This document shows positions 1-64,000 of a stretch of 64,000 nucleotides of DNA, piece by piece. Positions within the stretch are counted from its first letter, which is position 1. Each line of letters begins with the position of its first letter. Both the position numbers and the translations under genes were made by a program. The DNA is taken from contig CANOQG010000006.1 of NCBI GenBank assembly GCA_947568835.1, positions 248,001 through 312,000 of the forward strand. Reading direction: 5' to 3'. This stretch comes from Protonemura montana (Eukaryota; Arthropoda; Insecta; Plecoptera; Nemouridae). The notes beneath the pieces were generated by a model. That model was not told the DNA's origin. It worked only from the letters and a program-made list of their open reading frames with translations, and ran no database searches.

Positions 1-1716
1 CCTGCCCCATGTCCTGCCCCATGTCCTGCCCCATGTCCTGCCCTATGTCCTGCCCCATGTCCTGCCCCATGTCCTGCCCTATGTCCTGTCCCATGTCCTG
101 TCCCATGTCCTGCCCCATGTCCTGCCCCATGTCCTTCCCTATGTCCTGTCCCATGTCCTGCCCCATGTCCTGCCCCATGTCCTGCTCCATGTCCTCCCCC
201 TGTCCTGCCTCATGTCCCATGTCCTGCCCCGTGTCCTGCCCAATGTCCTGCCCCATGTCCTGCCCTATGTCCTGTCCCATGTCCTGCCCCATGTCCTGCC
301 CCATGTCCTGCCCCATGTCCTGCCCCATGTCTTTCCCCATGTCCCATGTCCTGCCCCATGTCCTGCCCCATGTCCTGCCCCATGTCCTGCCCCATGTCCT
401 GTCCCATGTCCTGCCTCATGTCCTGCCCCATGTCCTGCCCCATAGCCTGGCCTATGTCCTGCCCCATGTCCTGTCCCATGTCCTGCCCCATGTCCTGCCC
501 CATGTCCTGCCCCATGTCCTGCCCCATGTCCTGCCCCATGTCCTGTCCCATGTCATGTCCCATGTCCTGCTCCATGTCCTGCCCCATGTCCTGCCCCATG
601 TCCTGCCCTATGTCCTGCCCCATGTCCTGCCCCATGTCCTGCCCCATGTCCTGCCCCATGTCCTGCCCTATGTCCTGCCCCATGTCCTGCCCCATGTCTT
701 GCCCCATGTCCCATGTCCTGCCCCATGTCCTGCCCCATGTCCTACCCCATGTCCTGCCCTATGTCCTGTCTTATGTCCTGCCCCATGTCCTGCCCCATGT
801 CCTGCTCCATGTCCTGCCCCATGTCCTGCTCCATGTCCCATGTCCTGCCCCATGTCCTGCCCCATGTCCTGTCCCATGTCCTGCCTCATGTCCTGCCCCA
901 TGTCCTGCCCCATGTTCTGCCCCATGTCCTGCCCCATGTCCTGTCCCATGTCCTGCCCCATGTCATGCCCCATGTCCTGCCCCATGTCCTGCCCCATGTC
1001 CCATGTCCTGCCCCATGTCCTGCCCTTTGTCCTGTCACATTTCCTGCCCCATGTCCTGCCCCATGTCCTGCCCCATGTCCTGCCCCATGTCCTGCCCCAT
1101 GTTCTGCCCCATGTCCTGCCCTATGTCTTGCCCCATGTCCCATGTCCTGCCCCATGTCCTGCCCCATGTCCTGCCCCATGTCCTTCCCTATGTCCTGTCC
1201 TATGTCCTGCCCCATGTCCTGCCCCATGTCCTGCTCCATGTCCTCCCCCTGTCCTGCCCCATGTCCCATGTCCTGCCCCATGTCCTGCCCCATGTCCTGC
1301 CCCATGTCCTGCCCTATGTCCTGTCCCATGTCCTGCCCCATGTCCTGCCCCATGTCCTGCCCTATGTCCTGCCCCATGTCTTGCCCCATGTCCCATGTCC
1401 TGCCCCATGTCCTGCCCCATGTCCTGCCCTATGTCCTGCCCCATGTCCTGCCCCATTTTCTGCTCCATGTTCCACCCCATGTCCTGCCCCATGTCCCATG
1501 TCATGCCCCATGTCCTGCCCCATGTCCTGCCCCATGTCCTGTCCCATGTCCTGCTCCATGTCCTGCCCCATGTCTTACCTCATGTCCCATGTCCTGCCTC
1601 ATGTCCTGCCCCATGTCCTGCCCCATATCCTGCCCCATGTCCTGCCCCATGTCCTGCCCCATGTCCTGTCCCATGTCCTGCCCAATGTCCTGCCCCATGT
1701 CCTGCCCCATGTCCTG
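1..1716. repeat. Array I: 12-bp minisatellite with 7-bp punctuation
   Basis: Uninterrupted tandem copies of ATGTCCTGCCCC and near variants (TGTCCC, TGCCCT, TGCTCC, TGCCTC endings). Seven-base monomers ATGTCCC begin at 212, 339, 706, 833, 996, 1135, 1261, 1388, 1491 and 1582. Every spacing is a multiple of 12 plus 7 except one, which also contains an 11-bp monomer near 200-211-type sequence (the CTCCCCCTGTCC variant). The array continues past the left window edge. It is a near copy of 17651-19378, one monomer shorter between about 1389 and 1491. Reading frames through it are open only because the monomer lacks stops; I assign no gene. Confidence 0.98.
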
Positions 1717-2430
1717 CATCCGATGTCCTCTACCAGGAAGCCTCGGACCGCACTACTCCGCCTCCTCTGACCCATGACTTCCAAATCCCCTTATAGTGCT
1801 CCCAAGAAAGAAGAAAGAATGCCGCCTGCTGATCTACATCGGGGCAATCATTTATACCCATACCCTGCCTCATGTACTGCCATAAGTCCTGCCCTATGTT
1901 ATGCCCTATGCCCTGCCCCATGAACTGTATTATGTCCTGACTGACATCACGGCATCTGATGTCCTCATCCCAGAAAGCCGAGGACCGCAATACTCCGCCT
2001 TCTGGCTTCAGCCAGTCCTGTCCTGTCCTATGACCTGCCCCATGTTATGCCCCACATCCTGCCGCATATCCTGCCCAATGCCCCGACTATGTCAAACACA
2101 TCTTGGGTCTTATGTCCTCCCCGATGTCCTGGGGCATGTCCTGCACCAAGTCCTGCCCCATGTCCTGCACCATGTCTTGTCTGACACCATCGCATCCGAT
2201 GTCCTCATCCAGAATGCCGCGGACCCCGATACTTTGCCTTCTCAGACACATGGATTCCCAATTCATTTACACTGCTACTACGTTATAAGAAAGAATGCCC
2301 GCTAGATCGCGACCATCATTTTCACCGGAGACCAAACGCATCCTCCTCATCTCAGCTAGTTCTGCTCCATGTCCTGCCTTATGTCCTGATCCACATCCTG
2401 CCCCAAGTCCTGCCCCACGTTATGCCCTAA
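1716..2430. repeat. Degenerate ~238-bp repeats (x3) in element A1
   Basis: The head motif GCATCYGATGTCCTC begins at 1716, 1952 and 2192, so the spacings are 236 and 240 bp. After each head comes a related stretch (AGAAAGCCGAGGACC-like, then a TACTCCGCC-like run). Copies 1 and 3 also share a tail ending AAGAAAGAATGCC. Between the heads lie recognisable but decayed 12-bp monomers such as TATGTTATGCCC. This looks like an older, diverged higher-order repeat fossilised inside the young array. Open frames of 134 and 74 codons (1901-2305, 2295-2519) read through decayed monomers and are not credible genes. Confidence 0.75.
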
Positions 2431-2485
2431 GCCCTGCCCTATGTCCTGTACGATGTCCTGTTTCGCCTCTCCCGCCTCCTCTGCA

Positions 2486-2638
2486 GTTCATTGCCTCTGC
2501 CTTGCCGAAAGTTCATTGACCTCTGTTTTGCCGAAAGGTCATTCGCCTCTGATTTGCCCATGTCATTGACCTCTGTCTTGCCGAAAGTTCATTGACCTCT
2601 CTTTAGCCGAAAGGTCATCGACCTTTGTCTTGCTGAAC
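2486..2638. repeat. 25-26-bp tandem repeat, six copies (element A1)
   Basis: Units begin at 2486, 2511, 2537, 2562, 2587 and 2613. The shared core is GTTCATTGACCTCTG followed by TTGCCGAAA. Five of the six units end in GAAA or a one-base variant. The unit has no relationship to the 12-bp monomer. Several units contain RGKTCA-N-TGMCCY-like inverted half-sites (AGTTCATTGACCT at 2510-2522 and 2586-2598), discussed as a finding. Copies of the block are at 20148, 34215 and 43723. Confidence 0.85.
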
Positions 2639-2741
2639 AACATCTCGACAAGAGCCAGAGCTTTCTGACCGTGCGCCACACAAAGGAGAGCAATCTCGAA
2701 TCAGCAAGTCTAATCCGACGCCAGAGACACGTTGACGAGCC

Positions 2742-2816
2742 ATGAATTCCTCCACGGGCTTCGTCTGCGATCGTTGCGACAATGTCTTCACGTCGTTTGC
2801 CTACTCGGACGGCTAA
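2742..2816 (+). other. 24-codon ORF resembling half a C2H2 finger (speculative)
   Basis: The frame ATG...TAA encodes MNSSTGFVCDRCDNVFTSFA plus four residues. It has an F-x-C-x2-C-x3-F pattern like the first half of a C2H2 zinc finger, but no histidine pair follows before the stop. An in-frame TGA three codons upstream bounds it. A G at -3 is an acceptable eukaryotic start context. The stop codon lies inside a perfect hairpin loop (2805-2823). It could be a decayed first exon, or chance. Identical copies: 20404-20478, 34471-34545, 43979-44053. Confidence 0.2.
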
Positions 2817-2823
2817 CGTCCGA
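2805..2823. other. Perfect 7-bp hairpin, 5-nt loop (element A1)
   Basis: Arms TCGGACG (2805-2811) and CGTCCGA (2817-2823) flank the loop GCTAA. The stem is GC-rich and perfect. No T-run follows, so it is not an intrinsic terminator. It may be a structural element of a transcript or a chance palindrome. Confidence 0.6.
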
Positions 2824-2842
2824 ATGACACGGCGGCTTTCTA

Positions 2843-2888
2843 GCCTGCGCTACGGTAGTTAATATACACAACGGCTACTGTCGCAGGC
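2843..2888. other. Long imperfect inverted repeat around an AT-rich centre (element A1)
   Basis: The left arm GCCTGCGCTACGGTAG (2843-2858) pairs with the right arm CTACTGTCGCAGGC (2875-2888). The outer 7 bp are perfect, followed by a small bulge and a further GTAG/CTAC stem. The central stretch contains TTAATATACACA. Identical in all four A copies (20505, 34572, 44080). Confidence 0.65.
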
Positions 2889-3081
2889 AGTCAACGAGCC
2901 GCAAACATCGTTCCCTTCTACGTAGGATCCAGAATCACTCGATACGGACCATCTCCCCGACGCGCCATGGTCTCGGTGCTCTCGCGTCACCCTCCGTCGC
3001 GCGGGGGGTTAGGTTGCCACCGACGCGTAATACCAGTCTTTTAGCTACAATAGATTAGGCTTAGTGGTGGTTGTTAGTTCA

Positions 3082-3103
3082 CCTCGTGGTGGTCGACACG
3101 AGG
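3082..3103. other. Junction hairpin at the right end of element A1
   Basis: Perfect arms CCTCGTG (3082-3088) and CACGAGG (3097-3103) have an 8-nt loop. They end two bases before the 12-bp array resumes. The same hairpin sits at the same junction in all four A elements (20744, 34811, 44319). Confidence 0.65.
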
Positions 3104-4511
3104 CTCCTGCCCCATGTCCTGCCCTATGTCCTGCCCCATGTCCTGCCCCATTTTCTGCTCCATGTCCCGCCCCATGTCCTGCCCCATGTCCCATGTCATG
3201 CCCCATGTCCTGCCCCATGTCCTGCCCCATGTCCTGTCCCATGTCCTGCTCCATGTCCTGCCCCATGTCCTGCCCCATGTCCTGCCCCATGTCCTGCCCC
3301 ATGTCCTGTCCCATGTCATGTCCCATGTCCTGCTCCATGTCCTGCCCCATGTCCTGCCCCATGTCCTGCCCTATGTCCTGCCCCATGTCCTGCCCCATGT
3401 CCTGCCCCATGTCCTGCCCCATGTCCTGCCCTATGTCCTGCCCCATGTCCTGCCCCATGTCTTGCCCCATGTCCCATGTCCTGCCCCATGTCCTGCCCCA
3501 TGTCCTACCCCATGTCCTGCCCTATGTCCTGTCTAATGTCCTGCCCCATGTCCTGCCCCATGTCCTGCTCCATGTCCTGCCCCATGTCCTGCTCCATGTC
3601 CCATGTCCTGCCCCATGTCCTGCCCCATGTCCTGTCCCATGTCCTGCCTCATCTCCTGCCCCATGTCCTGCCCCATGTCCTGCCCCATGTCCTGCCCCAT
3701 GTCCTGTCCCATGTCCTGCCCCATTTCATGCCCCATGTCCTGCCCCATGTCCTGCCCCATGTCCCATGTCCTGCCCCATGTCCTGCCCCATGTCCTGTCA
3801 CATTTCCTGCCCCATGTCCTGCCCCATGTCCTGCCCCATGTCCTGCCCCATGTCCTGCCCCATGTTCTGCCCCATGTCCTGCCCTATGTCTTGCCCCATG
3901 TCCCATGTCCTGCCCCATGTCCTGCCCCATGTCCTGCCCTATGTCCTGTCCCATGTCCTGCCCCATGTCCTGCCCCATGTCCTGCCCTATGTCCTGCCCC
4001 ATGTCTTGCCCCATGTCCCATGTCCTGCCCCATGTCCTGCCCCATGTCCTGCCCCATGTCCTGCCCTATGTCCTGCCCCATGTCCTGCCCCATTTTCTGC
4101 TCCATGTTCCACCCCATGTCCTGCCCCATGTCCCATGTCATGCCCCATGTCCTGCCCCATGTCCTGCCCCATGTCCTGTCCCATGTCCTGCTCCATGTCC
4201 TGCCCCATGTCTTACCTCATGTCCCATGTCCTGCCTCATGTCCTGCCCCATGTCCCGCCCCATATCCTGCCCCATGTCCTGCCCCATGTCCTGCCCCATG
4301 TCCTGTCCCATGTCCTGCCCAATGTCCTGCCCCATGTCCTGCCCCATGTCCTGCCCTATGTCCTGCCCCATGTCCTGCCCCATGTCCTGCCCCATGTCCT
4401 GTCCCATGTCATGTCCCATGTCCTGCTCCATGTCCTGCCCCATGTCCTGCCCCATGTCCTGCCCTATGTCCTGCCCCATGTCCTGCCCCATGTCCTGCCC
4501 CATGTCCTGCC

Positions 4512-7500
4512 CTATGTCCTGCCCCATGTCCTGCCCCATGTCCCATGTCCTGCCCCATGTCCTGCCCCTTGTCCTGTCCCATTTCCTGCCCCATGTCCTA
4601 CCCCATGTCCTGCCCCATGTCCTGCCCCATGTCCTGCCCCATGTCCTGCCTCATGTCCTGCCCCATGTCTTGCCCCATGTCCCATGTCCTGCCCCATGTC
4701 CTGCCCCATGTCCTGCCCCATGTCCTGCCCTATGTCCTGTCTTATGTCCTGCCCCATGTAATGCCCCATTTTCTGCTCCATGTCCTGCCCCATGTCCCAT
4801 GTCATGCCCCATGTCCTGCCCCATGTCCTGCACCATGTCCTGTCCCATGTCCTGCTCCATGTCCTGCCCCATGTCCTGCCCCATGTCCTGCCCCATGTCC
4901 TGCCCCATGTCCTGTCCCATGTCATGTCCCATGTCCTGCTTCATGTCCTGCCCCATGTCCTGCCCCATGTCCTGCCCTATGTCCTGCCCCATGTCCTGCC
5001 CCATGTCCTGCCCCATGTCCTGCCCCATGTCCTGCCCTATGTCCTGCCCCATGTCCTGCCCCATGTCTTGCCCCATGTCCCATGTCCTGCCCCATGTCCT
5101 GCCCCATGTCCTACCCCATGTCCTGCCCTATGTCCTGTCTAATGTCCTGCCCCATGTCCTGCCCCATGTCCTGCTCCATGTCCTGCCCCATGTCCTGCTC
5201 CATGTCCCATGTCCTGCCCCATGTCCTGCCCCATGTCCTGTCCCATGTCCTGCCTCATCTCCTGCCCCATGTCCTGCCCCATGTCCTGCCCCATGTCCTG
5301 CCCCATGTCCTGTCCCATGTCCTGCCCCATTTCATGCCCCATGTCCTGCCCCATGTCCAGCCCCATGTCCCATGTCCTGCCCCATGTCCTGCCCCATGTC
5401 CTGTCACATTTCCTGCCCCATGTCCTGCCCCATGTCCTGCCCCATGTCCTGCCCCATGTCCTGCCCCATGTTCTGCCCCATGTCCTGCCCTATGTCTTGC
5501 CCCATGTCCCATGTCCTGCCCCATGTCCTGCCCCATGTCCTGCCCCATGTCCTTCCCTATGTCCTGTCCTATGTCCTGCCCCATGTCCTGCCCCATGTCC
5601 TGCTCCATGTCCTCCCCCTGTCCTGCCCCATGTCCCATGTCCTGCCCCATGTCCTGCCCCATGTCCTGCCCCATGTCCTGCCCTATGTCCTGTCCCATGT
5701 CCTGCCCCATGTCCTGCCCCATGTCCTGCCCTATGTCCTGCCCCATGTCTTGCCCCATGTCCCATGTCCTGCCCCATGTCCTGCCCCATGTCCTGCCCCA
5801 TGTCCTGCCCTATGTCCTGCCCCATGTCCTGCCCCATTTTCTGCTCCATGTTCCACCCCATGTCCTGCCCCATGTCCCATGTCATGCCCCATGTCCTGCC
5901 CCATGTCCTGCCCCATGTCCTGTCCCATGTCCTGCTCCATGTCCTGCCCCATGTCTTACCTCATGTCCCATGTCCTGCCTAATGTCCTGCCCCATGTCCC
6001 GCCCCATATCCTGCCCCATGTCCTGCCCCATGTCCTGCCCCATGTCCTGTCCCATGTCCTGCCCAATGTCCTGCCCCATGTCCTGCCCCATGTCCTGCCC
6101 TATGTCCTGCCCCATGTCCTGCCCCATGTCCTGCCCCATGTCCTGTCCCATGTCATGTCCCATGTCCTGCTCCATGTCCTGCCCCATGTCCTGCCCCATG
6201 TCCTGCCCTATGTCCTGCCCCATGTCCTGCCCCATGTCCTGCCCCATGTCCTGCCCTATGTCCTGCCCCATGTCCTGCCCCATGTCCCATGTCCTGCCCC
6301 ATGTCCTGCCCCTTGTCCTGTCCCATTTCCTGCCCCATGTCCTACCCCATGTCCTGCCCCATGTCCTGCCCCATGTCCTGCCCCATGTCCTGCCCCATGT
6401 CCTGCCCCATGTCTTGCCCCATGTCCCATGTCCTGCCCCATGTCCTGCCCCATGTCCTGCCCCATGTCCTGCCCTATGTCCTGTCTTATGTCCTGCCCCA
6501 TGTAATGCCCCATGTCCTGCTCCATGTCCTCCCCCTGTCCTGCCCTATGTCTTATGTCCTGCCCCATGTAATGCCCCATGTCCTGCTCCATGTCCTCCCC
6601 CTGTCCTGCCCTATGTCTTATGTCCTGCCCCATGTCCTGCCTCATGTCCTGCCCCATGTCCTTCCCTATGTCCTGTCCCATGTCCTGCCCCATTTCCTGC
6701 CCCATGTCCTGCTCCATGTCCTGCCCCATGTCCTGCCCCATGTCCTGCCCCATGTTCTGCCCCATGTCCTGCCCTATGTCTTGCCCCATGTCCCATGTCC
6801 TGCCCCATGTCCTGCCCCATGTCCTGCCCCATGTCCTTCCCTATGTCCTGTCCTATGTCCTGCCCCATGTCCTGCCCCATGTCCTGCTCCATGTCCTCCC
6901 CCTGTCCTGCCCCATGTCCCATGTCCTGCCCCATGTCCTGCCCCATGTCCTGCCCCATGTCCTGCCCTATGTCCTGTCCCATGTCCTGCCCCATGTCCTG
7001 CCCCATGTCCTGCCCTATGTCCTGCCCCATGTCTTGCCCCATGTCCCATGTCCTGCCCCATGTCCTGCCCCATGTCCTGCCCCATGTCCTGCCCTATGTC
7101 CTGCCCCATGTCCTGCCCCATTTTCTGCTCCATGTTCCACCCCATGTCCTGCCCCATGTCCCATGTCATGCCCCATGTCCTGCCCCATGTCCTGCCCCAT
7201 GTCCTGTCCCATGTCCTGCTCCATGTCCTGCCCCATGTCTTACCTCATGTCCCATGTCCTGCCTCATGTCCTGCCCCATGTCCCGCCCCATATCCTGCCC
7301 CATGTCCTGCCCCATGTCCTGCCCCATGTCCTGTCCCATGTCCTGCCCAATGTCCTGCCCCATGTCCTGCCCCATGTCCTGCCCTATGTCCTGCCCCATG
7401 TCCTGCCCCATGTCCTGCCCCATGTCCTGTCCCATGTCATGTCCCATGTCCTGCTCCATGTCCTGCCCCATGTCCTGCCCCATGTCCTGCCCTATGTCCT

Positions 7501-7618
7501 GCCCCATGTCCTGCCCCATGTCCTGCCCCATGTCCTGCCCTATGTCCTGCCCCATGTCCTGCCCCATGTCCCATGTCCTGCCCCATGTCCTGCCCCTTGT
7601 CCTGTCCCATTTCCTGCC
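4512..7618. repeat. 3.1-kb tandem duplication, copy 1
   Basis: The marker monomer order of this stretch repeats in 7619-10710 at an offset that rises from 3107 to 3143 bp as single-monomer or two-monomer indels accumulate. The largest is 24 bp inserted in the second copy between 8485 and 8874. The breakpoint near 7618 is visible as an immediate repetition of the CCTTGTCCTGTCCCATTTCC marker at about 7595 and 7672. Confidence 0.8.
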
Positions 7619-10600
7619 CTATGTCCTGCCCCATGTCCTGCCCCATGTCCCATGTCCTGCCCCATGTCCTGCCCCTTGTCCTGTCCCATTTCCTGCCCCA
7701 TGTCCTACCCCATGTCCTGCCCCATGTCCTGCCCCATGTCCTGCCCCATGTCCTGCCTCATGTCCTGCCCCATGTCTTGCCCCATGTCCCATGTCCTGCC
7801 CCATGTCCTGCCCCATGTCCTGCCCCATGTCCTGCCCTATGTCCTGTCTTATGTCCTGCCCCATGTAATGCCCCATTTTCTGCTCCATGTCCCGCCCCAT
7901 GTCCTGCCCCATGTCCCATGTCATGCCCCATGTCCTGCCCCATGTCCTGCCCCATGTCCTGTCCCATGTCCTGCTCCATGTCCTGCCCCATGTCCTGCCC
8001 CATGTCCTGCCCCATGTCCTGCCCCATGTCCTGTCCCATGTCATGTCCCATGTCCTGCTTCATGTCCTGCCCCATGTCCTGCCCCATGTCCTGCCCTATG
8101 TCCTGCCCCATGTCCTGCCCCATGTCCTGCCCCATGTCCTGCCCCATGTCCTGCCCTATGTCCTGCCCCATGTCCTGCCCCATGTCTTGCCCCATGTCCC
8201 ATGTCCTGCCCCATGTCCTGCCCCATGTCCTACCCCATGTCCTGCCCTATGTCCTGTCTAATGTCCTGCCCCATGTCCTGCCCCATGTCCTGCTCCATGT
8301 CCTGCCCCATGTCCTGCTCCATGTCCCATGTCCTGCCCCATGTCCTGCCCCATGTCCTGTCCCATGTCCTGCCTCATCTCCTGCCCCATGTCCTGCCCCA
8401 TGTCCTGCCCCATGTCCTGCCCCATGTCCTGTCCCATGTCCTGCCCCATTTCATGCCCCATGTCCTGCCCCATGTCCTGCCCCATGTCCCATGTCCTGCC
8501 CCATGTCCTGCCCCATGTCCTGTCACATTTCCTGCCCCATGTCCTGCCCCATGTCCTGCCCCATGTCCTGCCCCATGTCCTGCCCCATGTTCTGCCCCAT
8601 GTCCTGCCCTATGTCTTGCCCCATGTCCCATGTCCTGCCCCATGTCCTGCCCCATGTCCTGCCCCATGTCCTTCCCTATGTCCTGTCCTATGTCCTGCCC
8701 CATGTCCTGCCCCATGTCCTGCTCCATGTCCTCCCCCTGTCCTGCCCCATGTCCCATGTCCTGCCCCATGTCCTGCCCCATGTCCTGCCCCATGTCCTGC
8801 CCCATGTCCTGCCCCATGTCCTGCCCTATGTCCTGTCCCATGTCCTGCCCCATGTCCTGCCCCATGTCCTGCCCTATGTCCTGCCCCATGTCTTGCCCCA
8901 TGTCCCATGTCCTGCCCCATGTCCTGCCCCATGTCCTGCCCCATGTCCTGCCCTATGTCCTGCCCCATGTCCTGCCCCATTTTCTGCTCCATGTTCCACC
9001 CCATGTCCTGCCCCATGTCCCATGTCATGCCCCATGTCCTGCCCCATGTCCTGCCCCATGTCCTGTCCCATGTCCTGCTCCATGTCCTGCCCCATGTCTT
9101 ACCTCATGTCCCATGTCCTGCCTAATGTCCTGCCCCATGTCCCGCCCCATATCCTGCCCCATGTCCTGCCCCATGTCCTGCCCCATGTCCTGTCCCATGT
9201 CCTGCCCAATGTCCTGCCCCATGTCCTGCCCCATGTCCTGCCCTATGTCCTGCCCCATGTCCTGCCCCATGTCCTGCCCCATGTCCTGTCCCATGTCATG
9301 TCCCATGTCCTGCTCCATGTCCTGCCCCATGTCCTGCCCCATGTCCTGCCCTATGTCCTGCCCCATGTCCTGCCCCATGTCCTGCCCCATGTCCTGCCCT
9401 ATGTCCTGCCCCATGTCCTGCCCCATGTCCCATGTCCTGCCCCATGTCCTGCCCCTTGTCCTGTCCCATTTTCTGCCCCATGTCCTACCCCATGTCCTGC
9501 CCCATGTCCTGCCCCATGTCCTGCCCCATGTCCTGCCTCATGTCCTGCCCCATGTCTTGCCCCATGTCCCATGTCCTGCCCCATGTCCTGCCCCATGTCC
9601 TGCCCCATGTCCTGCCCTATGTCCTGTCTTATGTCCTGCCCCATGTAATGCCCCATGTCCTGCTCCATGTCCTCCCCCTGTCCTGCCCTATGTCTTATGT
9701 CCTGCCCCATGTAATGCCCCATGTCCTGCTCCATGTCCTCCCCCTGTCCTGCCCTATGTCTTATGTCCTGCCCCATGTCCTGCCTCATGTCCTGCCCCAT
9801 GTCCTTCCCTATGTCCTGTCCCATGTCCTGCCCCATTTCCTGCCCCATGTCCTGCTCCATGTCCTGCCCCATGTCCTGCCCCATGTCCTGCCCCATGTTC
9901 TGCCCCATGTCCTGCCCTATGTCTTGCCCCATGTCCCATGTCCTGCCCCATGTCCTGCCCCATGTCCTGCCCCATGTCCTTCCCTATGTCCTGTCCTATG
10001 TCCTGCCCCATGTCCTGCCCCATGTCCTGCTCCATGTCCTCCCCCTGTCCTGCCCCATGTCCCATGTCCTGCCCCATGTCCTGCCCCATGTCCTGCCCCA
10101 TGTCCTGCCCTATGTCCTGTCCCATGTCCTGCCCCATGTCCTGCCCCATGTCCTGCCCTATGTCCTGCCCCATGTCTTGCCCCATGTCCCATGTCCTGCC
10201 CCATGTCCTGCCCCATGTCCTGCCCCATGTCCTGCCCTATGTCCTGCCCCATGTCCTGCCCCATTTTCTGCTCCATGTTCCACCCCATGTCCTGCCCCAT
10301 GTCCCATGTCATGCCCCATGTCCTGCCCCATGTCCTGCCCCATGTCCTGTCCCATGTCCTGCTCCATGTCCTGCCCCATGTCTTACCTCATGTCCCATGT
10401 CCTGCCTCATGTCCTGCCCCATGTCCCGCCCCATATCCTGCCCCATGTCCTGCCCCATGTCCTGCCCCATGTCCTGTCCCATGTCCTGCCCAATGTCCTG
10501 CCCCATGTCCTGCCCCATGTCCTGCCCTATGTCCTGCCCCATGTCCTGCCCCATGTCCTGCCCCATGTCCTGTCCCATGTCATGTCCCATGTCCTGCTCC

Positions 10601-10710
10601 ATGTCCTGCCCCATGTCCTGCCCCATGTCCTGCCCTATGTCCTGCCCCATGTCCTGCCCCATGTCCTGCCCCATGTCCTGCCCTATGTCCTGCCCCATGT
10701 CCTGCCCCAT
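7619..10710. repeat. 3.1-kb tandem duplication, copy 2
   Basis: Second copy of 4512-7618. It includes the doubled TAATG/CTCCCCCTGTCCTGCCCTATG module seen at 6503-6620 and again at 9645-9765. The right part (from about 9865) also belongs to the block repeated at 21494 onward. Confidence 0.8.
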
Positions 10711-12955
10711 GTCCCATGTCCTGCCCCATGTCCTGCCCCTTGTCCTGTCCCATTTCCTGCCCCATGTCCTACCCCATGTCCTGCCCCATGTCCTGCCCCA
10801 TGTCCTGCCCCATGTCCTGCCTCATGTCCTGCCCCATGTCTTGCCCCATGTCCCATGTCCTGCCCCATGTCCTGCCCCATGTCCTGCCCCATGTCCTGCC
10901 CTATGTCCTGTCTTATGTCCTGCCCCATGTAATGCCCCATGTCCTGCTCCATGTCCTCCCCCTGTCCTGCCCTATGTCTTATGTCCTGCCCCATGTCCTG
11001 CCTCATGTCCTGCCCCATGTCCTTCCCTATGTCCTGTCCCATGTCCTGCCCCATTTCCTGCCCCATGTCCTGCTCCATGTCCTGCCCCATGTCCTGCCCC
11101 ATGTCCCGCTCCATGTCCTCCCCCTGTCCTGCCTCATGTCCCATGTCCTGCCCCATGTCCTGCCCCATGTCCTGCCCCATGTCCTGCCCCATGTCCTGTC
11201 CCATGTCCAGCCCCATGTTTTGCCCCATGTCCTGTCCAATGTCCTGCCTTATGTCCTGCCCCATGTCCTGCCCCATGTCCTGCCCCATGTCCTTCCCTAT
11301 GTCCTGTCCCATGTCCTGCCCCATGTCCTGCCCCATGTCCTGCCCCATGTCTTGCCCCATGTCCCATGTCCTGCCCCATGTCCTGCCCCATGTCCTGCCC
11401 CATGTCCTGCCCTATGTCCTGTCCCATGTCCTGTCCCATGTCATGTCCCATGTCCTGCTCCATGTCCTGCCCCATGTCCTGCCCCATGTCCTGCCGCATA
11501 TCCTGCCCAATGCCCCGACTATGTCGAACACATCTAACATCTTATGTTTTCCCCCATATACTGTCGCATGTCATGCACTATGTCCTGCCCCATGTCCTAT
11601 ATCATGTCTTGTCTGACATCACCGCATCCGATGTCCTCTACCAGGAAGCCTCGGACCGCACTACTCCGCCTCCTCTGACCCATGACTTCCAAATCCCCTT
11701 ATAGTGCTCCCAAGAAAGAAGAAAGAATGCCGCCTGCTGATCTCTACATCGCGGCAATCATTTCCACCCATACCCTGCCTCATGTACTGCCATAAGTCCT
11801 GCCCTATGTTATGCCCTATGCCCTGCCCCATGAACTGTATTATGTCCTGACTGACATCACGGCATCTGATGTCCTCATCCCAGAAAGCCGAGGACCCCAA
11901 TACTCCGCCTTCTGCCTTCAGCCAATCCTGTCCTGTCCTATGTCCTGCCGCATGTTATGCCCCACATCCTGCCGCATAGCTCCGACTATGTCAAACACAT
12001 CTTAGGTCTTATGTCCTCCCCCATGTCCTGCCGCATGTCATGCACTATGTCCTGCCCCATGTCCTGCTCCATGACCTGCCCCATGTCCCATGTCCTGCCC
12101 CATGTCCTGCCCCATGTCCTGCCCCAAGTCCTGCCTCATGTCCTGCCCCATGTCCTGCCCCATGTCCTGCCCCATGTCCTGCCCCATGTCCTGCCCTATG
12201 TCCTGCCCCATGTCCTGCCCCATGTCCTGCCCTATGTCCTGTCCCATGTCCTGTCCCATGTCCTGCCCCATGTCCTGCCCCATGTCCTTCCCTATGTCCT
12301 GTCCCATGTCCTGCCCCATGTCCTGCCCCATGTCCTGCTTCATGTCCTCCCCCTGTCCTGCCTCATGTCCCATGTCCTGCCCCGTGTACTGCCCAATGTC
12401 CTGCCCTATGTCCTGCCCTATGTCCTGTCCCATGTCCTGCCCCATGTCCTGCCCCATGTCCTGCCCCATGTCCTGCCCCATGTCTTTCCCCATGTCCCAT
12501 GTCCTGCCCCATGTCCTGCCCCATGTCCTGCCCCATGTCCTGCCCCATGTCCTGTCCCATGTCCTGCCTCATGTCCTGCCCCATGTCCTGCCCCATAGCC
12601 TGGCCTATGTCCTGCCCCATGTCCTGTCCCATGTCCTGCCCCATGTTTTGCCCCATGTCCTGCCCCATGTCCTGCCCTATGTCCTGTCCCATGTCCTGCC
12701 CCATGTCCTGCCCCATGTCCTGTCCCATGTCCTGCCTCATGTCCTACCCCATGTCCTGCCCTATGTCCTGCCCCATGTCCTGCCCCATGTCCTGCCCCAT
12801 GTCCTGCCCCATGTCCTGCCCCATGTCCTGTCCCATGTCATGTCCCATGTCCTGCTCCATGTCCTGCCCCATGTCCTGCCCCATGTCCTGCCCTATGTCC
12901 TGTCCCATGTCCTGCCCCATGTCCTGCCCCATGTCCTGTCCCATGTCCTGCCTCA
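9865..12955. repeat. Segmental duplication at offset 11,629 (copy 1, contains B1)
   Basis: Array, B1 and the start of array III recur at about 21494-24584 with constant offset 11629. Only scattered differences were seen, for example CTTATG near 10979 versus CATATG near 22608, and T at 11549 versus C at 23178. Downstream the copies diverge by an 84-bp difference. Confidence 0.8.
11494..12049. repeat. Interspersed element B, copy 1
   Basis: A 556-bp interruption made of the same degenerate repeat of about 238 bp as the left half of element A. Head motifs are at 11624 and 11862. The phrase GACTATGTCRAACACATCT occurs at both ends, about 467 bp apart. The 25-26-bp tandem repeat and the CpG-containing core of A are absent. 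Compared with A it differs by a 2-bp insertion (ATCTCTACATCG versus ATCTACATCG) and scattered substitutions, so it is a diverged relative, not a truncated recent copy. Frames ending at 11704 and 12005 are chance. Confidence 0.88.
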
Positions 12956-15900
12956 TGTCCTACCCCATGTCCTGCCCTATGTCCTGCCCCATGTCCTGCC
13001 CCATGTCCTGCCCCATGTCCTGCCCCATGTCCTGCCCTATGTCCCGCCCCATGTCCTGCCCCATGTCCCATGTCCTGCCCCATGTCCAGCCCCTTGTCCT
13101 GTCCCATTTCCTGCCCCATGTCCTGCCCCATGTCCTGCCCCATGTCCTGCCCCATGTCCTGCCCCATGTCCTGCCCCATGTCTTGCCCCATGTCCCATGT
13201 CCTGCCCCATGTCCTGCCCCATGTCCTGCCCCATGTCCTGCCCTATGTCCTGTCCCATGTCCTGTCCCATGTCATGTCCCATGTCCTGCTCCATGTCCTG
13301 CCCCATGTCCTGCCCCATGTCCTGCCCTATGTCCTGCCCCATGTCCTGCCCCATGTCCTGCCCCATGTCCTGCTCCATGACCTGCCCCATGTCCCATGTC
13401 CTGCCCCATGTCCTGCCCCATGTCCTGCCCCAAGTCCTGCCTCATGTCCTGCCCTATGTCCTGCCCCATGTCCTGCCCCATGTCCTGCCCCATGTCCTGC
13501 CCTATGTCCTGCCCCATGTCCTGCCCTATGTCCTGTCCCATGTCCTGTCCCATGTCCTGCCCCATGTCCTGCCCCATGTCCTTCCCTATGTCCTGTCCCA
13601 TGTCCTGCCCCATGTCCTGCCCCATGTCCTGCTCCATGTCCTCCCCCTGTCCTGCCTCATGTCCCATGTCCTGCCCCGTGTCCTGCCCAATGTCCTGCCC
13701 CATGTCCTGCCCTATGTCCTGTCCCATGTCCTGCCCCATGTCCTGCCCCATGTCCTGCCCCATGTCCTGCCCCATGTCTTTCCCCATGTCCCATGTCCTG
13801 CCCCATGTCCTGCCCCATGTCCTGCCCCATGTCCTGCCCCATGTCCTGTCCCATGTCCTGCCTCATGTCCTGCCCCATGTCCTGCCCCATAGCCTGGCCT
13901 ATGTCCTGCCCCATGTCCTGTCCCATGTCCTGCCCCATGTCCTGCCCCATGTCCTGCCCCATGTCCTGTCCCATGTCATGTCCCATGTCCTGCTCCATGT
14001 CCTGCCCCATGTCCTGCCCCATGTCCTGCCTTATGTCCTGCCCCATGTCCTGCCCCATGTCCTGCCCCATGTCCTGCCCCATGTCCTGCCCTATGTCCTG
14101 CCCCATGTCCTGCCCCATGTCTTGCCCCATGTCCCATGTCCTGCCCCATGTCCTGCCCCATGTCCTACCCCATGTCCTGCCCTATGTCCTGTCTTATGTC
14201 CTGCCCCATGTCCTGCCCCATGTCCTGCTCCATGTCCTGCCCCATGTCCTGCTCCATGTCCCATGTCCTGCCCCATGTCCTGCCCCATGTCCTGTCCCAT
14301 GTCCTGCCTCATCTCCTGCCCCATGTCCTGCCCCATGTCCTGCCCCATGTCCTGCCCCATGTCCTGTCCCATGTCCTGCCCCATGTCATGCCCCATGTCC
14401 TGCCCCATGTCCTGCCCCATGTCCCATGTCCTGCCCCATGTCCTGCCCCATGTCCTGCCCCATGTCCTGCCCCATGTCCTGCCCCATGTCCTGCCCCATG
14501 TCTTGCCCCATGTCCCATGTCCTGCCCCATGTCCTGCCCCATGTCCTGCCCCATGTCCTGCCCTATGTCCTGTCCCATGTCCTGTCCCATGTCATGTCCC
14601 ATGTCCTGCTCCATGTCCTGCCCCATGTCCTGCCCCATGTCCTGCTCCATGTCCTGCCCCATGTCCTGCCCCATGTCCTGCCCTATGTCCTGCCCCATGT
14701 CCTGCCCCATGTCCTGCCCCATGTCCTGCCCCATGTCCTGCCCTATGTCCTGCCCCATGTCCTGCCCCATGTCTTGCCCCATGTCCCATGTCCTGCCCCA
14801 TGTCCTGCCCCATGTCCTACCCCATGTCCTGCCCTATGTCCTGTCTTATGTCCTGCCCCATGTCCTGCCCCATGTCCTGCTCCATGTCCTGCCCCATGTC
14901 CTGCTCCATGTCCCATGTCCTGCCCCATGTCCTGCCCCATGTCCTGTCCCATGTCCTGCCTCATCTCCTGCCCCATGTCCTGCCCCATGTCCTGCCCCAT
15001 GTCCTGCCCCATGTCCTGTCCCATGTCCTGCCCCATGTCATGCCCCATGTCCTGCCCCATGTCCTGCCCCATGTCCCATGTCCTGCCCCATGTCCTGCCC
15101 CATGTCCTGCCCCATGTCCTGCCCCATGTCCTGCCCCATGTCCTGCCCCATGTCTTGCCCCATGTCCCATGTCCTGCCCCATGTCCTGCCCCATGTCCTG
15201 CCCCATGTCCTGCCCTATGTCCTGTCCCATGTCCTGTCCCATGTCATGTCCCATGTCCTGCTCCATGTCCTGCCCCATGTCCTGCCCCATGTCCTGCCCT
15301 ATGTCCTGCCCCATGTCCTGCCCCATGTCCTGCCCCATGTCCTGCTCCATGACCTGCCCCATGTCCCATGTCCTGCCCCATGTCCTGCCCCATGTCCTGC
15401 CCCAAGTCCTGCCTCATGTCCTGCCCTATGTCCTGCCCCATGTCCTGCCCCATGTCCTGCCCCATGTCCTGCCCTATGTCCTGCCCCATGTCCTGCCCCA
15501 TGTCCTGCCCTATGTCCTGTCCCATGTCCTGTCCCATGTCCTGCCCCATGTCCTGCCCCATGTCCTTCCCTATGTCCTGTCCCATGTCCTGCCCCATGTC
15601 CTGCCCCATGTCCTGCTCCATGTCCTCCCCCTGTCCTGCCTCATGTCCCATGTCCTGCCCCGTGTCCTGCCCAATGTCCTGCCCCATGTCCTGCCCTATG
15701 TCCTGTCCCATGTCCTGCCCCATGTCCTGCCCCATGTCCTGCCCCATGTCCTGCCCCATGTCTTTCCCCATGTCCCATGTCCTGCCCCATGTCCTGCCCC
15801 ATGTCCTGCCCCATGTCCTGCCCCATGTCCTGTCCCATGTCCTGCCTCATGTCTTGCCCCATGTCCTGCCCCATAGCCTGGCCTATGTCCTGCCCCATGT

Positions 15901-20147: not shown

Positions 20148-20300
20148 GTTCATTGCCTCTGCCTTGCCGAAAGTTCATTGACCTCTGTTTTGCCGAAAGG
20201 TCATTCGCCTCTGATTTGCCCATGTCATTGACCTCTGTCTTGCCGAAAGTTCATTGACCTCTCTTTAGCCGAAAGGTCATCGACCTTTGTCTTGCTGAAC
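20148..20300. repeat. 25-26-bp tandem repeat (element A2)
   Basis: Six units identical to those at 2486-2638, including the two AGTTCATTGACCT sites (20172-20184 and 20248-20260). Confidence 0.85.
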
Positions 20301-24584: not shown

Positions 24585-24586
24585 TG

Positions 24587-43722: not shown

Positions 43723-43875
43723 GTTCATTGCCTCTGCCTTGCCGAAAGTTCATTGACCTCTGTTTTGCCGAAAGGTCATTCGCCTCTGATTTGCCCATGT
43801 CATTGACCTCTGTCTTGCCGAAAGTTCATTGACCTCTCTTTAGCCGAAAGGTCATCGACCTTTGTCTTGCTGAAC
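43723..43875. repeat. 25-26-bp tandem repeat (element A4)
   Basis: Six units as in 2486-2638. AGTTCATTGACCT occurs at 43747-43759 and 43823-43835. Confidence 0.85.
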
Positions 43876-47300: not shown

Positions 47301-48015
47301 CCATGTCTTGCCCCATGTCCCATGTCCTGCCCCATGTCCTGCCCCATGTCCTGCCCCATGTCCTGCTCCATGTCCTGCCCCATGTCCTGCTCCATGTCCC
47401 ATGTCCTGCCCCATGTCCTGCCCCATGTCCTGTCCCATGTCCTGCCTCATGTCCTGCCCCATGTCCTGCCCCATGTCCTGCCCCATGTCCTGCCCCATGT
47501 CCTGTCCCATGTCCTGCCCCATGTCATGCCCCATGTCCTGCCCCATGTCCTGCCCCATGTCCCATGTCCTGCCCCATGTCCTGCCCTTTGTCCTGTCACA
47601 TTTCCTGCCCCATGTCCTGCCCCATGTCCTGCCCCATGTCCTGCCCCATGTCCTGCCCCATGTTCTGCCCCATGTCCTGCCCTATGTCTTGCCCCATGTC
47701 CCATGTCCTGCCCCATGTCCTGCCCCATGTCCTGCCCCATGTCCTTCCCTATGTCCTGTCCTATGTCCTGCCCCATGTCCTGCCCCATGTCCTGCTCCAT
47801 GTCCTCCCCCTGTCCTGCCCCATGTCCCATGTCCTGCCCCATGTCCTGCCCCATGTCCTGCCCCATGTCCTGCCCTATGTCCTGTCCCATGTCCTGCCCC
47901 ATGTCCTGCCCCATGTCCTGCCCTATGTCCTGCCCCATGTCTTGCCCCATGTCCCATGTCCTGCCCCATGTCCTGCCCCATGTCCTGCCCCATGTCCCAT
48001 GTCCTGCCCCATGTC

Positions 48016-51000: not shown

Positions 51001-51238
51001 TGTCCTGTCCCATGTCCTGTCCCATGTCATGTCCCATGTCCTGCTCCATGTCCTGCCCCATGTCCTGCCCCAAGTCCTGCTCCATGACCTGCCCCATGTC
51101 CCATGTCCTGCCCCATGTCCTGCCCCATGTCCTGCCCCAAGTCCTGCCTCATGTCCTGCCCCATGTCCTGCCCCATGTCCTGCCCCATGTCCTGCCCCAT
51201 GTCCTGCCCTATGTCCTGCCCCATGTCCTGCCCCATGT
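48016..51238. repeat. Segmental duplication at offset 6,047 (copy 1)
   Basis: Marker order recurs at about 54063-57285 at a constant offset of 6047. Small differences are present, such as CCAATGTCC near 49291 where the partner reads CCCATGTCC. Confidence 0.75.
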
Positions 51239-52012
51239 CCTGCCCTATGTCCTGTCCCATGTCCTGTCCCATGTCCTGCCCCATGTCCTGCCCCATGTCC
51301 TTCCCTATGTCCTGTCCCATGTCCTGCCCCATGTCCTGCCCCATGTCCTGCTCCATGTCCTCCCCCTGTCCTGCCTCATGTCCCATGTCCTGCCCCGTGT
51401 CCTGCCCAATGTCCTGCCCCATGTCCTGCCCTATGTCCTGTCCCATGTCCTGCCCCATGTCCTGCCCCATGTCCTGCCCCATGTCCTGCCCCATGTCTTT
51501 CCCCATGTCCCATGTCCTGCCCCATGTCCTGCCCCATGTCCTGCCCCATGTCCTGCCCCATGTCCTGTCCCATGTCCTGCCTCATGTCCTGCCCCATGTC
51601 CTGCCCCATAGCCTGGCCTATGTCCTGCCCCATGTCCTGTCCCATGTCCTGCCCCATGTCCTGCCCCATGTCCTGCCCCATGTCCTGCCCCATGTCCTGC
51701 CCCATGTCCTGTCCCATGTCATGTCCCATGTCCTGCTCCATGTCCTGCCCCATGTCCTGCCCCATGTCCTGCCCTATGTCCTGCCCCATGTCCTGCCCCA
51801 TGTCCTGCCCCATGTCCTGCCCCATGTCCTGCCCTATGTCCTGCCCCATAACCTGCCCCATGTCTTGCCCCATGTCCCATGTCCTGCCCCATGTCCTGCC
51901 CCATGTCCTACCCCATGTCCTGCCCTATGTCCTGCCCCATGTCCTGCCCCGTGTCCTGCCCAATGTCCTGCCCCATGTCCTGCCCTATGTCCTGTCCCAT
52001 GTCCTGCCCCAT
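49717..52012. repeat. Segmental duplication at offset 11,988 (copy 1)
   Basis: Matches 61705-64000 including the rare CATAACCTGCCCC monomer (51847 and 63835) and the CCAAGTCCTGCTCC monomer (51072 and 63060). It is cut by the right window edge. Confidence 0.78.
50438..51611. repeat. 1174-bp HOR unit (example 1)
   Basis: One complete unit from one CATAGCCTGGCC marker to the next. Internal markers in order: GTTTTGCCCC, CTACCCC, CAGCCCCTTG, CCATGACC, CCAAGTCCTGCCTC, CCTTCCC, the 11-bp monomer, CCGTG..CCAATG, CTTTCCCC. Confidence 0.7.
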
Positions 52013-52165: not shown

Positions 52166-53339
52166 CCTGGCCTATGTCCTGCCCCATGTCCTGTCCCATG
52201 TCCTGCCCCATGTTTTGCCCCATGTCCTGCCCCATGTCCTGCCCTATGTCCTGTCCCATGTCCTGCCCCATGTCCTGCCCCATGTCCTGTCCCATGTCCT
52301 GCCTCATGTCCTACCCCATGTCCTGCCCTATGTCCTGCCCCATGTCCTGCCCCATGTCCTGCCCCATGTCCTGCCCCATGTCCTGCCCCATGTCCTGTCC
52401 CATGTCATGTCCCATGTCCTGCTCCATGTCCTGCCCCATGTCCTGCCCCATGTCCTGCCCTATGTCCTGCCCCATGTCCTGCCCCATGTCCTGCCCCATG
52501 TCCTGCCCCATGTCCTGCCCTATGTCCTGCCCCATGTCCTGCCCCATGTCCCATGTCCTGCCCCATGTCCAGCCCCTTGTCCTGTCCCATTTCCTGTCCC
52601 ATGTCCTGCCCCATGTCCTGCCCCATGTCCTGCCCCATGTCCTGCCCCATGTCCTGCCCCATGTCTTGCCCCATGTCCCATGTCCTGCCCCATGTCCTGC
52701 CCCATGTCCTGCCCCATGTCCTGCCCTATGTCCTGTCCCATGTCCTGTCCCATGTCATGTCCCATGTCCTGCTCCATGTCCTGCCCCATGTCCTGCCCCA
52801 TGTCCTGCTCCATGACCTGCCCCATGTCCCATGTCCTGCCCCATGTCCTGCCCCATGTCCTGCCCCAAGTCCTGCCTCATGTCCTGCCCCATGTCCTGCC
52901 CCATGTCCTGCCCCATGTCCTGCCCCATGTCCTGCCCTATGTCCTGCCCCATGTCCTGCCCCATGTCCTGCCCTATGTCCTGTCCCATGTCCTGTCCCAT
53001 GTCCTGCCCCATGTCCTGCCCCATGTCCTTCCCTATGTCCTGTCCCATGTCCTGCCCCATGTCCTGCCCCATGTCCTGCTCCATGTCCTCCCCCTGTCCT
53101 GCCTCATGTCCCATGTCCTGCCCCGTGTCCTGCCCAATGTCCTGCCCCATGTCCTGCCCTATGTCCTGTCCCATGTCCTGCCCCATGTCCTGCCCCATGT
53201 CCTGCCCCATGTCCTGCCCCATGTCTTTCCCCATGTCCCATGTCCTGCCCCATGTCCTGCCCCATGTCCTGCCCCATGTCCTGCCCCATGTCCTGTCCCA
53301 TGTCCTGCCTCATGTCCTGCCCCATGTCCTGCCCCATAG
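52166..53339. repeat. 1174-bp HOR unit (example 2)
   Basis: Same length and marker order as 50438-51611. It also matches 59993-61166 at offset 7827. Confidence 0.7.
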
Positions 53340-53803
53340 CCTGGCCTATGTCCTGCCCCATGTCCTGTCCCATGTCCTGCCCCATGTCCTGCCCCATGTC
53401 CTGCCCCATGGCCTGCCCCATGTCCTGCCCCATGTCCTGTCCCATGTCATGTCCCATGTCCTGCTCCATGTCCTGCCCCATGTCCTGCCCCATGTCCTGC
53501 CCTATGTCCTGCCCCATGTCCTGCCCCATGTCCTGCCCCATGTCCTGCCCCATGTCCTGCCCTATGTCCTGCCCCATGTCCTGCCCCATGTCTTGCCCCA
53601 TGTCCCATGTCCTGCCCCATGTCCTGCCCCATGTCCTGCCTCATGTCCTGCCCCATGTCCTGCCCCATAGCCTGGCCTATGTCCTGCCCCATGTCCTGTC
53701 CCATGTCCTGCCCCATGTCCTGCCCCATGTCCTGCCCCATGGCCTGCCCCATGTCCTGCCCCATGTCCTGCCCCATGTCCTGTCCCATGTCCTGCCTCAT
53801 GTC
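52311..53803. repeat. 1493-bp tandem HOR, copy 1
   Basis: Markers of this stretch repeat 1493 bp downstream (53804-55094), including the distinctive CATGGCCTGCC monomer near 53409 and 54902. Confidence 0.72.
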
Positions 53804-61704: not shown

Positions 61705-64000
61705 TGCCCCATGTCCTGCCCTATGTCCTGCCCCATGTCCTGCCCCATTTTCTGCTCCATGTTCCACCCCATGTCCTGCCCCATGTCCCATGTCATGCCC
61801 CATGTCCTGCCCCATGTCCTGCCCCATGTCCTGTCCCATGTCCTGCTCCATGTCCTGCCCCATGTCTTACCTCATGTCCCATGTCCTGCCTCATGTCCTG
61901 CCCCATGTCCTGCCCCATATCCTGCCCCATGTCCTGCCCCATGTCCTGCCCCATGTCCTGTCCCATGTCCTGCCCAATGTCCTGCCCCATGTCCTGCCCC
62001 ATGTCCTGCCCTATGTCCTGCCCCATGTCCTGCCCCATGTCCTGCCCCATGTCCTGTCCAATGTCCTGCCTTATGTCCTGCCCCATGTCCTGCCCCATGT
62101 CCTGCCCCATGTCCTTCCCTATGTCCTGTCCCATGTCCTGCCCCATGTCCTGCCCCATGTCCTGCTTCATGTCCTCCCCCTGTCCTGCCTCATGTCCCAT
62201 GTCCTGCCCCGTGTACTGCCCAATGTCCTGCCCTATGTCCTGCCCTATGTCCTGTCCCATGTCCTGCCCCATGTCCTGCCCCATGTCCTGCCCCATGTCC
62301 TGCCCCATGTCTTTCCCCATGTCCCATGTCCTGCCCCATGTCCTGCCCCATGTCCTGCCCCATGTCCTGCCCCATGTCCTGTCCCATGTCCTGCCTCATG
62401 TCCTGCCCCATGTCCTGCCCCATAGCCTGGCCTATGTCCTGCCCCATGTCCTGTCCCATGTCCTGCCCCATGTTTTGCCCCATGTCCTGCCCCATGTCCT
62501 GCCCTATGTCCTGTCCCATGTCCTGCCCCATGTCCTGCCCCATGTCCTGTCCCATGTCCTGCCTCATGTCCTACCCCATGTCCTGCCCTATGTCCTGCCC
62601 CATGTCCTGCCCCATGTCCTGCCCCATGTCCAGCCCCATGTCCTGCCCCATGTCCTGTCCCATTTCATGTCCCATGTCCTGCTCCATGTCCTGCCCCATG
62701 TCCTGCCCCATGTCCTGCCCTATGTCCTGCCCCATGTCCTGCCCCATGTCCTGCCCCATGTCCTGCCCCATGTCCTGCCCTATGTCCTGCCCCATGTCCT
62801 GCCCCATGTCCCATGTCCTGCCCCATGTCCAGCCCCTTGTCCTGTCCCATTTCCTGCCCCATGTCCTGCCCCATGTCCTGCCCCATGTCCTGCCCCATGT
62901 CCTGCCCCATGTCCTGCCCCATGTCTTGCCCCATGTCCCATGTCCTGCCCCATGTCCTGCCCCATGTCCTGCCCCATGTCCTGCCCTATGTCCTGTCCCA
63001 TGTCCTGTCCCATGTCATGTCCCATGTCCTGCTCCATGTCCTGCCCCATGTCCTGCCCCAAGTCCTGCTCCATGACCTGCCCCATGTCCCATGTCCTGCC
63101 CCATGTCCTGCCCCATGTCCTGCCCCAAGTCCTGCCTCATGTCCTGCCCCATGTCCTGCCCCATGTCCTGCCCCATGTCCTGCCCCATGTCCTGCCCTAT
63201 GTCCTGCCCCATGTCCTGCCCCATGTCCTGCCCTATGTCCTGTCCCATGTCCTGTCCCATGTCCTGCCCCATGTCCTGCCCCATGTCCTTCCCTATGTCC
63301 TGTCCCATGTCCTGCCCCATGTCCTGCCCCATGTCCTGCTCCATGTCCTCCCCCTGTCCTGCCTCATGTCCCATGTCCTGCCCCGTGTCCTGCCCAATGT
63401 CCTGCCCCATGTCCTGCCCTATGTCCTGTCCCATGTCCTGCCCCATGTCCTGCCCCATGTCCTGCCCCATGTCCTGCCCCATGTCTTTCCCCATGTCCCA
63501 TGTCCTGCCCCATGTCCTGCCCCATGTCCTGCCCCATGTCCTGCCCCATGTCCTGTCCCATGTCCTGCCTCATGTCCTGCCCCATGTCCTGCCCCATAGC
63601 CTGGCCTATGTCCTGCCCCATGTCCTGTCCCATGTCCTGCCCCATGTCCTGCCCCATGTCCTGCCCCATGTCCTGCCCCATGTCCTGCCCCATGTCCTGT
63701 CCCATGTCATGTCCCATGTCCTGCTCCATGTCCTGCCCCATGTCCTGCCCCATGTCCTGCCCTATGTCCTGCCCCATGTCCTGCCCCATGTCCTGCCCCA
63801 TGTCCTGCCCCATGTCCTGCCCTATGTCCTGCCCCATAACCTGCCCCATGTCTTGCCCCATGTCCCATGTCCTGCCCCATGTCCTGCCCCATGTCCTACC
63901 CCATGTCCTGCCCTATGTCCTGCCCCATGTCCTGCCCCGTGTCCTGCCCAATGTCCTGCCCCATGTCCTGCCCTATGTCCTGTCCCATGTCCTGCCCCAT
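61705..64000. repeat. Segmental duplication at offset 11,988 (copy 2, cut by window end)
   Basis: Partner of 49717-52012. The left boundary follows a 393-bp deletion junction near 61595. Confidence 0.78.
62426..63599. repeat. 1174-bp HOR unit (example 4)
   Basis: Same marker order as 50438-51611. It has a private CATTTCATGTCCC variant near 62663 and a CAGCCCCATG variant near 62632. Confidence 0.7.

Follow-up and report, generated by a model that had tools for sequence, protein, structure and literature searches.

The window analysed here is a stretch of 64,000 nucleotides from the stonefly Protonemura montana (contig CANOQG010000006.1, hereafter C17; C17:248001-312000), taken from a genome assembly of 258,480,905 bp in 34 contigs, 11 of which are chromosome-size. 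It is part of a very long repetitive block at a chromosome end, where copying of a 12-bp motif has produced nested repeats of increasing size. Most probably, the block belongs to a subtelomeric satellite mega-array that is homogenised by homology-driven unequal exchange, with the hierarchy arising as a by-product. The array is a well-resolved case of an already known kind of satellite DNA and represents no new genetic system.

A single Tandem Repeats Finder (TRF) array with consensus CCTGCCCCATGT and period 12 (5433.8 copies, 81% matches) spans the window from position 1 to 64000, and successive ATGTC anchors are spaced by 12 bp in 3,807 of 4,664 cases and by 7 bp in 386. The 12-bp monomer proposed in an earlier note on this DNA thus stands, as the array covers the full window and 12 is the prevailing anchor spacing. 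Six perfect monomers occur in a row at 18 places in the window, and the array combines high copy number with a single orientation, as subtelomeric satellites do. No Rfam family reached its gathering score in the window or in 12 sampled 300-bp pieces of other contigs.

1..64000, + strand: 12-bp satellite array, consensus CCTGCCCCATGT, in one orientation; part of C17:1 to ~1,164,873, ending in (TTAGG)n

Cutting the array at sites of the 7-bp remnant CATGTCCCATGTCC divides the window into 354 cassettes of 100 exact types, or 56 families once a few mismatches are allowed, and 303 of the 354 fall in repeated types. Cassette length equals 12n+7 in 212 of the 354, the remaining lengths being 0 (71), 6 (48), 2 (17), or other values (6) modulo 12; the n x 12 + 7 cassettes described earlier are therefore the majority, although not the rule. 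The conditional entropy of the next cassette is 0.92 bits versus 2.46 after shuffling, the longest repeated run comprises 23 cassettes versus at most 4 in 100 shuffles, and several steps between cassette families are nearly fixed (26 to 21 in 21/21 cases, 1 to 2 in 16/16, 3 to 4 in 13/13, and 23 to 0 in 20/21). The fullest higher-order repeat (HOR) unit is a 19-cassette cycle of 3,025 bp that is complete twice in the window; these two copies stand 663 bp apart, which accounts for the 3,688-bp period. Shorter periods draw on cassettes of the same unit, some of which have been lost or substituted, and a 1,174-bp HOR variant consists of seven cassettes, five in common with the 3,025-bp unit and two of its own. 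HORs of about 0.6-2.2 kb, as first suggested, are indeed present, but the fullest unit exceeds that range.

24938..27962, + strand: complete 3,025-bp higher-order unit of 19 cassettes, copy 1
28626..31650, + strand: complete 3,025-bp higher-order unit, copy 2, at a period of 3,688
35516..36689, + strand: 1,174-bp HOR variant, copy 1
45024..46197, + strand: 1,174-bp HOR variant, copy 2

As in other HOR satellites, distinct units follow one another in fixed order, and blocks are more alike than the units within them. No one tandem HOR length dominates: measured from each 300-bp window to its nearest copy of at least 98% identity, the lags are widely scattered around a median of 2,433 bp, the commonest being 9508 (47 of 592 windows) and 3688 (46 of 592). 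The best coverage by any offset in exact runs of at least 150 bp is 6,287 bp, at 9508. Such runs thus account for about a tenth of the window at most, whichever the offset, and the window is accordingly a patchwork of HOR variants and not a uniform HOR array.

Larger duplications were sought as blocks of at least 98% identity in 200-bp windows, compared ungapped, so that diverged or gapped copies are undercounted. At least one such block was found at each of the short offsets named in the earlier note (590, 1174, 1493, 2163, and 3688) and at each of its kilobase offsets (3143, 3688, 6047, 9508, 11629, 11988, 14067/14112, and 17662). With blocks at every named offset, the 12-bp period does not stand alone without preferred longer periods, and the multi-level hierarchy claimed for this monomer is supported at the levels of cassettes, higher-order units, and kilobase duplications. 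The largest blocks measure 6,432 bp at 9508 (99.84% identity) and 3,917 bp at 14067, and the weakest offset, 590, is represented by one block of 675 bp; identity across the listed blocks is 97.5-99.8%. Exact repeats extend to 4,202 bp, whereas in 20 unit-shuffled controls the longest measured 105-186 bp. Among 637 windows of 300 bp, 77% have an exact copy elsewhere in the analysed stretch and 93% a copy at 98% identity or more.

24551..28304, + strand: tandem block, repeated at +3,688, 99.8%
31414..37845, + strand: 6.4-kb block, repeated at +9,508 (40922-47353), 99.84%, containing the 4,202-bp exact repeat
17065..20981, + strand: block repeated at +14,067 (31132-35048), 99.7%
1385..3960, + strand: block repeated at +17,662 (19047-21622), 99.7%
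9811..12960, + strand: block repeated at +11,629 (21440-24589), 99.7%
47948..51301, + strand: block repeated at +6,047, 99.6%
49679..52012, + strand: block repeated at +11,988 (up to the window end), 99.7%
5627..7652, + strand: block repeated at +3,143, 99.5%
52215..53674, + strand: tandem block, repeated at +1,493, 99.5%
35642..37845, + strand: tandem block, repeated at +2,163, 99.6%

The chromosomal setting of the array is defined by its junction with the telomere. C17 is 1,170,000 bp long, of which the satellite fills about 1.16 Mb, and samples taken from base 1 to the telomere were all satellite or island (see below), none on the other strand. At C17:1,164,874 the satellite gives way, with nothing in between, to (TTAGG)n, a telomere repeat of arthropod type that continues to the contig end; the same junction lies at C12:18,228,084, again with telomere repeat to the contig end, and the first repeats related to the C12 array appear near 17.024 Mb. 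TTAGG is reported at stonefly chromosome ends (PMC10835800). Over the final 300 bp ahead of the telomere, C17 and C12 disagree at 4 positions, and a 29-bp junction pattern, searched across the assembly with up to 3 mismatches, was found at these two places only. It is possible that C17 and the C12 end are alleles, with C17 representing the second haplotype. A long tandem array thus adjoins the telomere on both contigs, and of the locations offered in the earlier note (centromeric, subtelomeric, or other), the subtelomeric one is borne out, whereas no evidence was found for the centromeric one.

Beyond these two contigs, the satellite was found in 21 of 23 sampled places on C18 (5.5 Mb; both strands), in all four samples of C25 (two of them with islands), and in the single samples of C21 and C24; extrapolating from samples, the satellite-bearing contigs would together amount to roughly 8 Mb, or ~3% of the assembly. 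Six perfect monomers in a row occur at 5,672 places genome-wide (1,346 on the reverse strand), and the matches listed comprise three places on C4 with the rest on C12 and no reverse-strand place, in a search that misses diverged arrays. Nine in a row occur at 426 places, diverged arrays again being missed; the matches listed, in contig order and reaching C18, fall only on C12, C17, and C18, so that among these matches C12 is the only contig of C1-C16, and the only chromosome-size one, represented. Samples of 300-600 bp from near the ends of C1, C2, C4, C13, C14, and C16 contain tandem repeats other than the 12-bp satellite, with different periods (98, 60, 105/249, 33, 47, and 32/38 bp), and no tandem repeats were seen in samples of C3, C5, and C11. 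The starts of C2, C12, and C15 read N. Because there are only two junctions, and because, in the matches listed, C12 alone among the chromosome-size contigs bears nine perfect monomers, this is probably not a satellite common to the karyotype.

Several observations concern telomere-type repeats and related 12-mers elsewhere. Eight CCTAA units match at 9,672 places genome-wide, and the matches listed include many internal C1 sites in both orientations, that is, interstitial telomere tracts. A short TTTAGGG tract lies at C16:944,741-944,887, in an assembly with TTAGG telomeres. On C12, a small inverted 12-mer block with its own variant monomers (C12:16,914,000-16,917,000) is located ~110 kb before the main array, beside another tandem repeat.

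Divergence along the array, expressed as substitutions per base relative to the consensus (shuffled control, 0.430), separates a uniform core from its edges. Core values are 0.043-0.069 in 7/7 samples of C17 and 0.047-0.055 in 4/4 samples of C12; fifteen 3-kb pieces of the C17 core all fall between 0.043 and 0.048, and the 21 satellite samples of C18 range from 0.033 to 0.080. On the telomere side, divergence rises to 0.135-0.167 on C17 (8/8 samples) and 0.137-0.185 on C12 (8/9 samples, the ninth being a non-satellite stretch), reaching 0.215 and 0.217 in the last 600 bp before the telomere. The step is located at 0.9-1.0 Mb on C17 and at 17.7-17.8 Mb on C12. One sample from the chromosome-side edge of C12 gave 0.303, and this edge consists of older repeats of degenerate 12-mers and island-type spacers with 60-99% identity. 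CpG is nearly absent from the core, with an observed/expected ratio of 0.00-0.02 in 11 core samples of C17 and C12. A non-satellite stretch in the telomere-side zone (C12:18,210,001-18,210,600) looks, by eye, like the envelope-type gene carried by an insect gypsy-like element. Also by eye, a fragment of Gypsy-type RNase H-like sequence was recognised beside the chromosome-side array edge (C12:17,023,000-17,023,300), where it is followed by a ~41-bp tandem repeat that also occurs at C4:25.6 Mb on the other strand.

In the window, the array is interrupted by six islands, detected by falling monomer match, which total 6,582 bp and are not clean 12-bp array. They are of two types, one of 1,391 bp with four identical copies and one of 509 bp with two copies that are one mismatch apart. 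Both types contain degenerate 12-mers and spacer modules, and only the longer also contains a 26-bp minisatellite.

1715..3105, + strand: island type 1, 1,391 bp, copy 1 of 4
19377..20767, + strand: island type 1, copy 2
33444..34834, + strand: island type 1, copy 3
42952..44342, + strand: island type 1, copy 4
11503..12011, + strand: island type 2, 509 bp, copy 1 of 2
23132..23640, + strand: island type 2, copy 2
2485..2637, + strand: 26-bp minisatellite, 6 copies, within island type 1 (TRF)

With a 651-bp island probe, at least 13 full-length copies at 99-100% were identified in the assembly (8 on C17, 1 on C25, and 4 on C12), which suggests recent spread, along with 2 partial matches on C17; the remaining 15 of the 30 matches correspond to short or diverged segments on C11, C2, and C5. 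Outside the window, further copies of the island complex lie on C12 near 17.025, 17.124, 17.143, and 17.164 Mb and on C17 near 52, 102, 128, and 175 kb, a spacing that constitutes a further repeat level of ~19-99 kb. The islands look like edge material that was brought into the core by large duplications, because the C12 edge holds the same spacers and degenerate 12-mers. A comparison of island type 1 with a plasmid collection gave no match. The island part carrying the 26-bp minisatellite (window 2485-2637) has relatives at 81-89% in C11:2,265,000-2,269,400 and C2:647,400-647,900.

How such an array might form is suggested by its rarer cassettes. Excluding two long types (1,731 and 1,736 bp, i.e., > 700 bp), there are 37 rare cassette types, of which 24 can be described, allowing up to 2 mismatches, as chimeras that join two pieces of common types, versus 4-5 of 37 in five trials in which 12-mers were shuffled within cassettes. 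In 23 of these 24 chimeras the join is shifted by 0 modulo 12, that is, in register. Homology-driven misalignment is favoured over random end joining because the joins keep the 12-bp register, although the register itself has no separate control. In the proposed course of events, slippage inside monomers would have left the 7-bp (and 5-bp) remnants that mark off cassettes, and blocks ranging from one monomer up to tens of kilobases would then be duplicated and deleted as sister or homologous arrays exchange sequence in misaligned but in-register fashion, or through an equivalent form of copying based on replication. The expected outcome would be a higher-order unit of ~3 kb together with truncated or modified forms of it, and block repeats of several kilobases and of 19-99 kb, with the fastest turnover and greatest uniformity in the core and older, diverged sequence at the edges.

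Cassette order is shared well beyond the window. Among adjacent assigned cassettes, pairs already known from the window account for 45/48, 37/40, 44/45, and 39/42 in four other C17 samples, 17/19 and 14/17 at the C17 start, 27/34, 22/25, and 27/29 on C25, and 9/10 at 17.165 Mb on C12. In these ten samples (six from C17 up to 410 kb, three from C25, and one from C12), the shared-pair fraction is 0.79-0.98 versus shuffled means of 0.05-0.10. A toy model of random block duplication and deletion, started from a repeat-free array, produced nested kilobase offsets of similar size, with a median nearest lag of 1.2-10.6 kb versus the observed 2.4 kb and a longest exact repeat of 1.4-7.6 kb versus 4.2 kb. 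The simulations suggest that unequal exchange with recent large duplications would be sufficient in kind.

Several points weigh against this account. Thirteen of the 37 rare cassette types cannot be reduced to a simple join of two pieces, and the register of the joins lacks a control of its own. All 18 toy runs fell below the observed share of exactly copied 300-bp windows (0.18-0.73 versus 0.77); the real process would therefore copy somewhat more, or more recently, than the settings tried, and by this model, exchange is probably somewhat more active than simulated. The window cassettes are also regional, with 3/12 recognised and 0/2 pairs fitting at C17:900 kb, 3/15 recognised in C12 17.3-17.7 Mb, and 1/3 at C18:2.0 Mb, all of these being short samples. 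Exchange itself is read from its end products, and since C17 could be allelic to the C12 end, the data do not demonstrate that it took place between different chromosomes. Finally, the exact long repeats could in principle be assembly artefacts.

Among the alternatives, the array could serve as a centromere, on a chromosome of acrocentric or telocentric form; the homogenised core would then bear the kinetochore and the edges would have diverged, much as alpha-satellite arrays are organised. A homogeneous core flanked on both sides by diverged material has the look of active centromeric arrays, and in Drosophila the dodeca satellite, with its 11/12-bp repeat, has a centromeric position and co-localises with CID (PMC4542561). 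The same gradient, however, arises in any array under unequal exchange, and the restriction of the satellite-telomere junction to two places, of nine perfect monomers to C12 among the chromosome-size contigs (in the matches listed), and the presence of other tandem repeats at the sampled ends of C1, C2, C4, C13, C14, and C16 make a centromere unlikely. A shade less probable again, in our view, is the specific form of a terminal centromere peculiar to this chromosome, based on a 12-mer rich in C and poor in CpG, with an active, rapidly turning-over ~3-kb HOR core beside the telomere; if true, it would be a telocentric insect centromere on a very short monomer.

It is very improbable that the long duplications are assembly artefacts, produced by false expansion or mis-joining of a simpler 12-bp array. 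The sizes of C17 and C25 are exact multiples of 1,000 bp, which suggests cutting during curation, and C18 switches strand several times. The copies nevertheless differ by scattered substitutions and by gain or loss of cassettes, cassette order recurs on separate contigs, the telomere junction and the gradient agree on two contigs, and duplicates of 2-6 kb would be within the reach of long reads. That the array encodes a long repetitive protein can be dismissed almost entirely: the 208 open frames of at least 120 codons in the window (the longest of 1,708 codons) and the divisibility of the monomer by three might seem to favour it, but none of the forward frames of the consensus contains a stop codon, from which open frames follow automatically, while 7-bp cassette boundaries shift the frame and the long frames overlap in several phases.

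The preferred reading, a subtelomeric array under unequal exchange, has parallels among known satellites. The alpha-satellite monomer is ~171 bp long, the mouse major satellite is another case built up from short units, and the 3.6 kb of human HSAT3/DYZ1 is a higher-order repeat unit. The view of the earlier note that such depth is uncommon for so short a monomer is overstated, since the human Y-linked 3.6-kb HSAT3/DYZ1 satellite, which varies between individuals, derives from 5-bp (AATGG)n (PMC7767330). This human satellite III resembles the present array in carrying kilobase units on a very short monomer and differs from it in its monomer and in its position on the human Y, not beside a TTAGG telomere. 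The dodeca satellite shares an 11/12-bp repeat with one G-rich and one C-rich strand, whereas its sequence, CCCGTACTCGGT/CCCGTACTGGT, is not that of the consensus found here, CCTGCCCCATGT, and its location is the centromeric region of chromosome 3 (PMC4542561). Primate alpha-satellite likewise has HOR blocks 97-100% alike and monomeric satellite at centromere edges (PMC8122249), but it is centromeric and has HORs of fixed length, whereas the window array has none fixed. MarmoSAT and StSat (PMC7767330) also adjoin the telomere, the former with HORs and the latter with a short 32-bp unit; they are, however, primate satellites with 171-bp and AT-rich 32-bp units, and the only HOR quoted there is one of 338 bp in the common marmoset. 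A limited literature search found no report of satellite CCTGCCCCATGT, sequence letters themselves not being searchable in papers.

Two further observations concern other parts of the assembly. A 35-bp GC-rich tandem repeat with no Rfam match, conceivably rDNA spacer, is common to the C18 start (C18:1001-1300) and the small contigs C20 and C27. The 15,885-bp contig C34 (68.5% A+T) reads as the mitochondrion, with genes recognised by eye from frames and tRNAs, in what is presumably the usual insect mitochondrial gene order.

No sequence-specific function is indicated for the array. Its role is most likely a passive one, as constitutive heterochromatin and a buffer between the chromosome arm and the telomere, and the array reveals no new mechanism. 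Its value lies in allowing the satellite to be followed almost completely from its chromosome-side edge (on C12), across the core, to the telomere, in cassettes of a 12-bp monomer that can be read like an alphabet. It is thus a good natural case for the study of satellite turnover, including block sizes, in-register recombination, and the rise of divergence toward both edges, and it indicates that deep higher-order structure needs no nucleosome-sized monomer.

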